In this document: positions 18,617 through 39,058 of the stretch, in pieces
Layout: every line of letters starts with the position of its first letter
How positions within the stretch are numbered: position 1 is the first letter of the stretch
Origin: Streptosporangiaceae bacterium
Lineage (GTDB): Bacteria; Actinomycetota; Actinomycetes; Streptosporangiales; Streptosporangiaceae
DNA: 39,716 nucleotides
Assembly (NCBI GenBank): GCA_030038015.1
Contig: JASHPR010000514.1
Location: 1 to 39,716, forward strand
Direction: 5' to 3'
The notes under the pieces: generated by a model
Seen by the model: the letters and a program-made list of their open reading frames with translations, nothing else
What the model was told of the DNA's origin: nothing
Database searches by the model: none
Program-made: the position numbers and the translations under genes

Positions 18617-19804
18617 ATGACCGCATTCCCCCTGGCAGACCGCATGAGCATGCTCGGCACCGAGTCCGCGTTCGAGGTGCTGGCCCGGGCCAAGGCCATG
18701 GAGGCCGCCGGGAGGAAGGTCGTCCACCTGGAGATCGGCGAGCCGGACTTCCCGACCGCGGCGCACATCATCGATGCCGCGGTGGCGGCGCTGCGGGCGG
18801 GGCAGACGCACTACGTCCCGGCGCCGGGTGTCCCGCCGCTGCGCGAGGGCGTCGCCGATTTCCTTGAACGTAACGGCCGGATGCGGGTCTCGCCGGACCA
18901 GGTGATCGTCACGCCGGGCGCGAAGCCCATCATGTTCTTCACGATCCTGGCCCTCTGTGGCCCGGGCGACGAGGTGCTGTACCCGGACCCGAGCTTCCCG
19001 ATGTACGAGTCGATCACGGCGTTCGCCGGCGCGACCGGGGTGCCGATCCCGCTGCGCGAGGGCAACGAGTTCCGGATCGACACCGATGAGCTGGAGCGCC
19101 TGGTCACCGAGCGGTCCAAGCTGCTGATCATCAACTCGCCGCACAACCCGTGCGGGTCGTCGCTGACCGCGGCGGACTGCGAGGCGATCGCCGAGATCGC
19201 GATGCGGCACGACCTGACCGTGCTGTCCGACGAGGTGTACTGGGCGATCAGGTACGGCACCGGGCGGCACGTGTCCGTGCTCGACGTGGACGGCATGGCC
19301 GACCGCACGATCCTGCTCGACGGCTGGTCCAAGACCTGGGCGATGACCGGCTGGCGGCTCGGCTTCGGCGTGTTCCCGCCCGCGCTGGTCGAGCCGGTGA
19401 CCCGGCTGGTCATCAACTCTGTGTCCTGCACGTCGGCGTTCAGCCAGTACGCGGCGCTGGCGGCGCTGCAGGGGCCGTGGGAACCGGTCGCGGAGATGGT
19501 CGCCGAGTTCCGCCGGCGGCGCGACGTGATCGTGGCGGGGCTGAATTCCATCCCGGGGATCTCGTGCGTGGAGCCGCAGGGCGCGTTCTACGTGTTCCCG
19601 AACATCACGGGGACCGGGCTGACCTCAGGCGAGCTGGCGGCCCGGCTGCTGGCCGACGCCGGGGTCGCCGCGCTGGCCGGGACCGCGTTCGGCAGGTTCG
19701 GCGAGGGGTTCATGCGCTTCTCCTACGCCAACTCGGTCGAGAACATCAACCTGGCGCTGGACGCCGTCCGCGCGAACCTGGCCGAGAGCGTCACCCCAGC
19801 CTGA
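18617..19804 (+). CDS. Class I/II PLP-dependent aminotransferase
   Basis: LEIGEPDFPTAAHI, INSPHNPCGSSL, DGWSKTWAMTGWRLGF (PLP Lys). The long upstream extension of this ORF is antisense to the transketolase gene. Confidence 0.9.
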   Translation: MTAFPLADRMSMLGTESAFEVLARAKAMEAAGRKVVHLEIGEPDFPTAAHIIDAAVAALRAGQTHYVPAPGVPPLREGVADFLERNGRMRVSPDQVIVTPGAKPIMFFTILALCGPGDEVLYPDPSFPMYESITAFAGATGVPIPLREGNEFRIDTDELERLVTERSKLLIINSPHNPCGSSLTAADCEAIAEIAMRHDLTVLSDEVYWAIRYGTGRHVSVLDVDGMADRTILLDGWSKTWAMTGWRLGFGVFPPALVEPVTRLVINSVSCTSAFSQYAALAALQGPWEPVAEMVAEFRRRRDVIVAGLNSIPGISCVEPQGAFYVFPNITGTGLTSGELAARLLADAGVAALAGTAFGRFGEGFMRFSYANSVENINLALDAVRANLAESVTPA

Positions 19805-19839: not shown

Positions 19840-19982
19840 GGCCCCGGGAGCCCCGCCCGTGTGCGGGGAGCCCGGCCCGTGTGGCGGGGAGCCCCGCCCG
19901 CGTGGCGGGGAGCCCGGCCCGCGTGGCGGGGAGCCCGGCCCGGGTGCGGGGAGCCCGGCTCGCGTGGCGGGAGCCCAGCAAC
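19840..19982. repeat. GC-rich tandem array, unit about 20-21 bp (GTGGCGGGGAGCCCGGCCCGC), about 6-7 copies
   Basis: Successive units at 19861, 19881, 19902, 19923, 19944 and 19964, 20-21 bp each with few substitutions. Confidence 0.9.
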
Positions 19983-20040
19983 GGTGTCGTGGACTCCTTG
20001 CTGTTGCTCTATGAACAGTAAGGACTCCACGACACCATTG
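19979..20040. repeat. Long imperfect inverted repeat (hairpin element E1)
   Basis: Arms 19979-20005 and 20014-20040, 24/27 complementary, 8-nt loop GCTCTATG. Abuts the tandem array. Confidence 0.9.
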
Positions 20041-20349: not shown

Positions 20350-20772
20350 ATGGCATCGACGGAGAAGATTGAGGCGTTTCTGGCCGAGCCGCGGAACATC
20401 GTGGTCGCCGGGATCCGGCGGGACGGGACCCCGCACCTGACTCCCAACTGGTTCTACTGGGACGGGGAGCGGTTCTACGTGTCCACCACGCGGCACCGGG
20501 CGAAGTACGCGATCTTCCGCAGGGACCCCAGGGCGCAGCTGCTCGTCGACGACTCCACCGGGTACCGCGCCGTGCTGGCCCGGGCCACCGCGGAGATCCG
20601 CGAGGACCTCGCGGCCGAGCTGCCCCGCTTCCGCGCGATCCGGGAGAAGCACGGGGTGCAGGTGCCGAGCGACGAGGAGCAGCTGCGGGCGCTGACCGAG
20701 GAGGGCCGGGTCCTGCTCGCGTTCACGCCCGACGGGCCGCCGTCAACGTGGACGTCCTGGGGGCTGGACTGA
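20350..20772 (+). CDS. PPOX-class (pyridoxamine 5'-phosphate oxidase-like/F420-dependent) enzyme
   Basis: AFLAEPRNIVVAGIRRDGTPHLTPNWFYWDGERFYVSTTRHRAKYAIFRRDPRAQLLVDD. Confidence 0.88.
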   Translation: MASTEKIEAFLAEPRNIVVAGIRRDGTPHLTPNWFYWDGERFYVSTTRHRAKYAIFRRDPRAQLLVDDSTGYRAVLARATAEIREDLAAELPRFRAIREKHGVQVPSDEEQLRALTEEGRVLLAFTPDGPPSTWTSWGLD

Positions 20773-20818: not shown

Positions 20819-20906
20819 ATCCGGCCCCGATGGCGGCCGGGTGCCGTCCTGCGTGCTCCGCGCCGCGCCGGCCGCTCGGCGGCGTGCAGGGACCGACGCC
20901 ATCACT

Positions 20907-20939
20907 GGTCCGAACAGCAACGGACCCACAACATCATTG
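20907..20939. repeat. Hairpin element E2
   Basis: GGTCCG-AACAGCAA-CGGACC core stem; 20913-20939 AACAGCAACGGACCCACAACATCATTG is 20/27 identical to the E1 right arm. Confidence 0.6.
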
Positions 20940-23569: not shown

Positions 23570-23652
23570 TGAGCTGACGGCGGGCTCGTCATGGAGCGCG
23601 CTTGGGCAGGCTCTGGGGGTGGGGGTGGGCTCGGCATCGGAGGGCTGAGGGC

Positions 23653-23755
23653 GGTGGCTGGAGCCGGTGGTCCGGGGCGGTGGCTGGAGCCGGTGGTCCG
23701 GGGCGGTGGCTGGAGCCGGTGGTCCGGGGCGGTGCTGGAGCCGGTGGTCCGGGGC
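23653..23755. repeat. 26-bp tandem repeat, four copies (last one 25 bp)
   Basis: GGTGGCTGGAGCCGGTGGTCCGGGGC at 23653, 23679 and 23705, nearly identical copy at 23731. Confidence 0.95.
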
Positions 23756-23764
23756 GGCTGGCCG

Positions 23765-26200: not shown

Positions 26201-26316
26201 GCTCGGTCGCCCCGTGCCGCACGGCCGGGGTCCGCGCCAACGCCGTCCCGGCCCCGCCCGCCGGCGGCCTGATGAGCGCTGACGGCCTGGCGCGCACCTG
26301 ACCGCCCCGCCCGGCT

Positions 26317-26358
26317 GCGCCCGGGGTCGCCCGGGTCGCCGAGGGTCGCCCGGGTGAG
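26317..26358. repeat. Short GC-rich irregular repeat (GGTCGCCCGG-like, 9-10 bp)
   Basis: GGTCGCCCGGGTCGCCGAGGGTCGCCCGGGTGAGG. Confidence 0.5.
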
Positions 26359-26374
26359 GTGGCCATGGTGAGTC

Positions 26375-26416
26375 TGTGGTCGCCAACGGCTGTGCGCACA
26401 GCCGTTCGTGACCACA
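26375..26416. repeat. Long palindrome (hairpin element E3)
   Basis: TGTGGTCGCCAACGGCTGTGC / GCACAGCCGTTCGTGACCACA: 19/21 complementary, no spacer. Confidence 0.85.
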
Positions 26417-26449
26417 AAGGGCGAATCTCGATCCGGCAGGCGCGGTGAG

Positions 26450-37625: not shown

Positions 37626-37703
37626 GCCGCCGACACGGCTGCGGGTACGGCACCAGGGTGCGGGCTGGGTCCCTGCCAGGTCCCGGGCGGCGCGTCTTTC
37701 CCC

Positions 37704-37839
37704 GGTCAGCGAACCCGGGCCAGCGTGCCCGGGCCAGCGTGCCCGGGTCAGCGTGCCCGCGCCAGTGAGCCCGGGTCAGCGTGCCCGGGTCAGCGTGCCC
37801 GCGCCAGTGAGCCGGCGTCAGTGAGCCCGCGCCAGTGAG
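37704..37839. repeat. 14-bp tandem array, about 9.7 copies
   Basis: Consensus SGYCAGYGWRCCCG; nine full units in exact register from 37704 plus CGCCAGTGAG to 37839. Confidence 0.95.
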
Positions 37840-37887
37840 GTGATGGCGTCCACGCTGTTCCTCTTACGACAGCGCGGACTCCACCAC
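37840..37887. repeat. Hairpin element E4, abutting the 14-bp array
   Basis: Arms GTGATGGCGTCCACGCTGT (37840-37858) / ACAGCGCGGACTCCACCAC (37869-37887), 16/19 paired; right arm similar to E1. Confidence 0.85.
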
Positions 37888-37975
37888 ACTGTTCGCCGGA
37901 CCATGTTCGGCGGCAAGATGGCCGTCAGCACGTCCTGCAACCGCCCGGATTGAAGGTCGCGAGGAGGACCAGCTC

Positions 37976-39058
37976 GTGGCGAGATGGCCGGACCAGCCGC
38001 AGCCGGCAGAAGAAAGGGCTGGTGAGCAGGCTGCTCCCGGCCACCGGCCGGTGGCGGATCGCCGGGCGCCCGCGGATCGGTCAGCGTTAGCCGACGGTCT
38101 GGGGCGATGGTCCCGCGAAAGCCTGCGGCAGCGCCTGGACCGGCTGCCCGACTGGCATCCGAGTCGGCCCAGCCAGCCGGACCGGCCCGGCGGCCAGCGC
38201 GAAGAAACCCTCCCGGACGGGCCGCAAGTGCGCCCGGAGCCGCTCACCGACGCACAGCACGAAGACCGCGTACGGCACATCCGCGGCCAGCTTGACCGGG
38301 CGCGCGATCAGGGGCTGGCGACCGACCGGCAGCACCTGGCCGACCAGCGACTCGGAATCTGGTCGAAGGATCGCCGGGATGCGCACGACGCGATCGTCGC
38401 GGATCTCTACGAGATGGCATCTAATGTTCCCTGCGAGAGGAAGGCGATCATGGCTGGAGGGCTTGGCGGCGCGGGGAAGTCGACCGTGCTCGGTGACCAC
38501 GCCCACGTTGAACAATCGCGGTACCTGACCATCAACCCGGACGGCATCAAGGAAGCGATGGCCCGGCGAGGGCTGATTCCACAGCTTGATGGCCTGTCTC
38601 CGATGGAGGCATCCGACCTGGTGCATGAGGAGTCCTCGCATATCGCCAAACTGTTAGCCGGCCGGGCGGTGAGGGATGGGAAGAACGTCATCTGGGACAT
38701 CACGATGAGCAGCGCGCCATCCACCGAGCAGCGGCTCGACGACCTGGATCGCGCGGGATACTCGACCGGCGGAATTTTCGTGGCTATCAGCATCGATGTC
38801 GCGGTGGGCCGCGCCTATACCAGGCACCGCCAAGGGCACGAGGACTACCGTGCGGGCATCGGATTCGGCGGCAGGTACATCCCGCCCGAAGTAATCAAGG
38901 CCCAAGCGGACCCAGATTGGGGCAGCGTGAACCGCCGGACGTTCGAGAAGGTCAAGCCGAGGTTCGCCGATTGGGCGGTCTACGACAACTCAGTCACTGG
39001 CCGAGATCCAATGCTGATCGACGTCGGCCATTGCCGAAGACAACGGGAGGAATGGTGA
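37976..39058 (+). CDS. Zeta toxin family protein with N-terminal extension
   Basis: AIMAGGLGGAGKSTVLGDH Walker A, LTINPDGIKEAMARRG, DITMSS, GGRYIPPEVI; GAGGAGG before GTG start. Confidence 0.87.
   Translation: MARWPDQPQPAEERAGEQAAPGHRPVADRRAPADRSALADGLGRWSRESLRQRLDRLPDWHPSRPSQPDRPGGQREETLPDGPQVRPEPLTDAQHEDRVRHIRGQLDRARDQGLATDRQHLADQRLGIWSKDRRDAHDAIVADLYEMASNVPCERKAIMAGGLGGAGKSTVLGDHAHVEQSRYLTINPDGIKEAMARRGLIPQLDGLSPMEASDLVHEESSHIAKLLAGRAVRDGKNVIWDITMSSAPSTEQRLDDLDRAGYSTGGIFVAISIDVAVGRAYTRHRQGHEDYRAGIGFGGRYIPPEVIKAQADPDWGSVNRRTFEKVKPRFADWAVYDNSVTGRDPMLIDVGHCRRQREEW

Follow-up and report, generated by a model that had tools for sequence, protein, structure and literature searches.

In the window, by which we mean the whole 39,716-nt stretch of Streptosporangiaceae DNA that was analysed, a 21-bp tandem array runs into a long inverted repeat between two plus-strand genes, and the question is what kind of element this site, E1, represents (Table 1). 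The initial annotation had proposed a composite of array and hairpin belonging to a dispersed non-coding family, with a REP- or MITE-like repeat, a structured RNA or an unusual terminator as options. Both parts were found where they had been described. The arms of the 62-nt hairpin (19979-20005 and 20014-20040) form 24 of 27 Watson-Crick pairs and one G-U pair, and the predicted fold has an energy of -40 kcal/mol, compared to -13.1 +/- 2.7 for shuffled sequences (z -9.8). The array (period 21, 6.4 copies, 90% match) stops 2 nt short of the hairpin, the edge of which is not visible inside the array unit. At the curated threshold, Rfam gave no match in the window, and E1 yielded sub-threshold matches only.

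Table 1. Positions of E1, its flanking genes and related sites in the window.
Feature	Position	Strand	Remark
Aminotransferase class I/II gene	18617..19804	+	upstream of E1 (context)
E1 21-bp tandem array	19846..19976	.	adjoins hairpin; locus-specific, taken as secondary, outside the dispersed element
E1 hairpin	19979..20040	.	family copy; 27-bp arms, 8-nt loop, CTG-12nt-CAG apex
Pyridoxamine-phosphate-oxidase-like gene	20350..20772	+	downstream of E1 (context)
E2 single right arm	20912..20939	.	degenerate half copy; left arm unrecognisable
14-bp tandem array	37700..37839	.	adjoins E4; units carry CAGTGAG, the first 7 nt of the E4 hairpin
E4 hairpin	37833..37894	.	second family copy of the window; covariance model 60.2 bits

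The host assembly (6.69 Mb, 786 contigs, 91% complete) was searched first with E1 as the query and then with a covariance model built from 21 copies, which revealed about 39 distinct, dispersed hairpin copies with E-values as low as 1e-17 and the consensus CAATGATGTsGTGGAsTCCnCGCTGTTnCTCTAnGAACAGCGnGGAsTCCACsACATCATTG. The copies reside at unrelated loci, and 39 of the 40 sites inspected fall outside called genes. The suggested family of dispersed, non-coding hairpins is thus borne out by intergenic matches far above chance. A pattern comprising a single arm matched the host genome 63 times, versus three times for the reversed control pattern. As these matches fall almost exclusively into hairpins and very few are solo sites, the arms do not occur dispersed one by one in the manner of uptake sequences; the many single copies besides inverted pairs that would characterise DNA uptake sequences were absent from this search.

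Within the window, the architecture of E1 had been thought to recur at E2 and E4. E4 is a true family copy next to an array. At E2 (20878-20939), in contrast, the hairpin is not intact; the right arm alone matches, and the covariance model score of 8.8-10.1 bits (E 2-5) is at chance level. A further palindrome (26372-26419, TGTGGTCGCCAACGGCTGTGCGCACAGCCGTTCGTGACCACA) is located beside a short tandem array (26308-26356) and scores weakly with the model (15 bits, E 0.08); it is possibly a relative of the E1 family or an independent case of an array beside a hairpin. Immediately behind a plus-strand gene, positions 23649-23762 harbor a 26-bp array of 4.4 near-identical copies without an adjoining family hairpin, and a gene for a Zeta-toxin-like kinase lies downstream of E4 (38228-39058).

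Relatives were sampled across the order, the family and the class, and homologous hairpins were identified. Their distribution is patchy, comprising the host genus, the genera g77, g25 and g20, and a sister family, and all carrier genomes are fragmented assemblies. About 60 copies occur in Streptosporangiaceae bacterium JOPF361 (G315, genus g77), about 13 in a second member of that genus (G320), five in the sister family (G027), three in G019, and one or two in G323 and G024; by genus, g25 and g20 have one to three. A pattern scan of genome contigs returned JOPF361 as the sole clear relative, the seven others looking like chance or unrelated hairpins, and no viral contig matched the hairpin pattern. 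The relatives keep the geometry of the hairpin, a stem of at least 19 bp and the CTG-12nt-CAG apex, while the outer stem is typical of each genome, e.g. CAACGTGGGGCCCTTGCTG in G315 and CAACGCTGAACCCCTGATG in G320. Among genomes sampled with at least four copies, outer-stem identity is 0.74-0.90 within a genome versus 0.26-0.65 between genomes. For the apex, similarity between genomes comes close to that within a genome; in hits found with the joint model R2, this conservation is partly due to selection, because R2 was built on this apex. Even two species of one genus possess different stems, at times in one syntenic gap: at four such gaps (L131/L189, L205/L197, L069/L159 and L064/L133) the hairpin is present in both genomes with different stems, versus a roughly estimated expectation of 0.7-1.4 (p about 0.006-0.05). 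This hints at old sites whose stems have been re-typed, an account that suits the four gaps no worse than fresh insertion does.

Elsewhere in the class, the family f21 yielded single matches that have the apex motif and might be distant members; they are left at that because 400 kb of one such genome, G512, contained a single hairpin of this kind. The same genome harbors long hairpins at L240, L242, L243 and L245 with TGATCATG/CATGATCA near their ends in common, which seem to belong to a separate family of dispersed palindromes. In three G315 copies (L147, L154, L159) one of the arms is inverted between its CAGC and GCTG ends, so that it lies in direct orientation, and about 60 nt of 5' flank are common to them. 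A repeat some 290 nt long without an Rfam match is likewise found near hairpins of G315 (L160:1226-1501, L204:1587-1872, L161:1118-1411) and contains a GCAAAGCGGGCATTCGG-like module that occurs beside other hairpins as well.

A conserved RNA structure, for which compensatory differences between copies had been proposed as a hallmark, would be expected to preserve pairing. The covariance model and genome search suggested at the outset did yield many intergenic matches; covariation, however, was absent in the 21 host copies, in which 83.1% of positions are paired versus 83.5% in column shuffles. A modest excess appears when diverged copies are included (34 host copies, 82.0% versus 77.8%) and in G315 (90.7% versus 87.8%). 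Strong covariation, with both sides of the stem changing together throughout, is restricted to comparisons between lineages, which are confounded by relatedness. In the host copies, positions 10/53, 16/47 and 7/56 of the 62-mer vary independently and do not keep their pairing, and the two arms, judged by their sequence, resemble a single consensus repeated in inverted orientation. An RNA helix under selection is possible, and the structured-RNA reading as a whole is weakened by the lack of pairing excess in the 21 host copies, by an orientation that is random relative to the genes and by ten copies residing in divergent gaps.

An alternative that we consider unlikely is that the hairpin consists of two inverted sites of a DNA-binding protein with lineage-specific recognition, which could be a nucleoid protein, a chromosome organiser or a regulator. 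It is favored by the quasi-palindromic make-up of each single arm (GGASTCC; CAGC-GTGGGGCCCTT-GCTG), by the mutually independent variation of S positions in the two arms, by the three G315 copies with a flipped arm and by the re-typed stems in the same syntenic gaps. However, single arms elsewhere in the genome are almost absent, the spacing is mostly fixed at 12 nt, and a double-stranded site would have no need of a conserved apex.

A role in transcription termination is distinctly unlikely as a full explanation, i.e. that the copies are bidirectional intrinsic terminators of the I-shaped, U-less type which have sequence in common by happenstance. Genes were called with a simple custom codon-usage script and spot-checked with Pfam. 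By these calls, the 36 placeable host copies are distributed over 15 tandem, 11 convergent and 10 divergent gaps, and the G315 copies over 25, 13 and three, respectively. In G315, 21 of the 25 tandem copies are closer to the upstream stop codon (p=0.0009), and in both G315 and G320 the median distance behind stop codons is tens of nucleotides, the hairpin often being alone in a short convergent gap. This placement, the high stability of the hairpin and the U-less structured 3' ends that are common in Streptomyces clavuligerus (PMC8269248) all favor terminators. On the other hand, a uniform sequence throughout the genome is not a property of ordinary terminators, none of 80 host tails has a T-run (at least four T in 8 nt) after the hairpin, the ten host copies between divergent genes include some with Pfam support on both sides (L071, L081), and the three stem positions named above fail to keep pairing. 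The location behind plus-strand genes with a shared orientation, noted initially for all three sites of the window, applies to E1 and E4 only; in each of the three genomes compared, hairpins are oriented randomly relative to the genes (7 of 15 tandem gaps in the host). Many copies, chiefly those of the relatives, could plausibly act as terminators, perhaps in a secondary role; in the host genome, this is not the whole story. The neighboring genes, 50-odd of which were scanned, are mostly ordinary metabolic ones. A separate locus (L058:3-2618) encodes an FtsK/SpoIIIE-like protein, the C-terminal part of which matches a LAGLIDADG domain and is possibly an intein.

Mobility is suggested by the unrelated flanks of the dispersed copies and by one pair of loci, L074 and L080, at which a segment of about 184 nt is 93% identical and starts exactly at the hairpin edge, while the outside sequence differs, as expected of a copied unit. 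For REP families, RAYT transposases are the accepted explanation. In the incomplete assemblies at hand, no RAYT (NF047646) was detected in the host, G315, G320 and G027 at E up to 1, and no Y1_Tnp domain (PF01797) in the host, G315 and G027. Similarly, no recurring transposase was present among the 50-odd genes near hairpins, and neighbors common to the lineages revealed only common synteny and widespread enzyme families instead of a cognate gene. The copied segment and the dispersed inverted repeats would also suit a MITE, which would derive by deletion from a DDE-type insertion sequence and have the arms as terminal inverted repeats. We regard this as highly improbable, as flank matches outside the palindrome showed no clear excess indicative of target-site duplication at any offset tested (k=2-9) and neither a parent insertion sequence nor a longer element with these ends was found in the 91% complete assembly, in accordance with the near absence of solo arms. 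At L085 and L086, two host contigs of 98.6% identity differ by an 851-bp segment encoding an HTH regulator (L085:3106-3956 versus L086:2841-2848); the break is located 43 nt from a hairpin and has short microhomology, and the difference may reflect a deletion close to the hairpin or variation between strains.

The tandem arrays are clearly associated with the hairpins: an array called by TRF lies within 25 nt of 15 of 40 host hairpins, versus five of 88 hairpin-free gaps with any array (p=1.4e-5). Period and sequence of the array are different at each locus, and it may be on either side of the hairpin. The terminal 6-14 nt of the hairpin are often present inside the array unit, and its terminal 7-mer occurs 39 times in the flanks versus 16.6 times expected. 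For example, the unit at L073 contains the terminal bases CAATGAT, that at L077 includes 14 nt of the hairpin, and those at L072 and L100 (G027) include a whole arm. The simplest account is that the arrays, which look like tandem duplications bounded on one side at or within the hairpin, were made in place; replication stalling at hairpins would be a fitting cause. Array and hairpin have not been dispersed together, because the units are unrelated between loci and grow from the hairpin's own edge. The proposal that both spread as one composite unit, for which the 15 adjoining arrays might speak, is therefore barely conceivable in view of locus-specific arrays on either side and 25 of 40 host copies having none.

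Taken together, E1 is best explained as a member of a REP-like family of palindromic DNA elements dispersed over the genome, and we consider this reading probable. It might be hypothesized that a trans-acting factor recognises the hairpin, probably as single-stranded DNA, multiplies the copies and keeps them uniform, and that its specificity has diverged between lineages; no candidate for this factor was found, and it is not a recognisable RAYT. The arrays would arise when replication stalls at the base of the hairpin and the nascent strand re-anneals upstream, by which the hairpin edge and its flank would be duplicated. Copies close behind stop codons may double as bidirectional terminators or stabilisers of mRNA 3' ends. 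Only tentatively might it be speculated that the family represents a new kind of palindrome with a conserved apex and an outer stem re-typed genome-wide in concert, old sites keeping their position and changing their sequence, driven by a non-RAYT factor that recognises hairpin DNA. An actinobacterial family with REP-like dispersal, without RAYT or tag, and with a stem that is uniform per genome and differs even within a genus makes the spread or homogenisation of palindromic repeats without the known enzyme testable. Furthermore, with about 15 naturally occurring arrays that grow from hairpin edges, the host genome provides a clean system for hairpin-induced replication slippage.

In a broad sense, the hairpins resemble REP elements in that tens of dispersed intergenic palindromes were found (about 39 in the host, about 60 in G315). 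The accessible part of Di Nocera et al. 2013 (PMC3733652) defines REPs by a GTAG or CGTC tag and a stem length of 5-13 or 8-9 bp, to which RAYT genes are added for the GTAG type. Like the REP, BIME and REPIN repeats associated with a RAYT (TnpA-REP), the present family consists of short intergenic palindromes in tens of copies with lineage-specific sequence, with a 3'-end bias in some genomes and with replication trouble to be expected at the hairpin. Unlike these, it lacks the GTAG tag (10-nt flanks: 0/80 in the host, 0/119 in G315, 1/26 in G320) and a RAYT in four genomes, and it combines a stem of 19-27 bp, against 5-13 bp for REP/RAYT in that part of PMC3733652, with a conserved apex and a genome-typed outer stem. 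With the CGTC REPs, as described there, it has in common the dispersal without a dedicated transposase; their 8-9 bp stems, 4-5 nt loops and unpaired CGTC tag are not found here (CGTC in 6/80 host and 2/119 G315 flanks; apex loop 8-12 nt). Untagged REP-like families are listed in the same part for M. tuberculosis, D. radiodurans, Bordetella and Brucella. Compared by description only, these are likewise dispersed and devoid of a terminal tag, with one actinobacterial example (M. tuberculosis), while genome-typed stems on a common apex and arrays formed in place are not described in that part of PMC3733652. I-shaped terminators of GC-rich bacteria are alike in having a stable GC-rich hairpin without a U-tract, often behind stop codons; unlike those, the hairpins here are sequence-uniform per genome and found between divergent genes as well. 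The open-access literature yielded no description of REP/RAYT systems in Actinobacteria or of palindromic repeats in Streptosporangiaceae, and a prior description is possible. The family works like REP/BIME repeats yet fails the defining features tested, tag and RAYT, and is assigned to neither the GTAG nor the CGTC REPs. What is ordinary about it is the dispersed palindrome; what is unusual are genome-typed stems on a common apex, the absence of the known enzyme and arrays formed in place.
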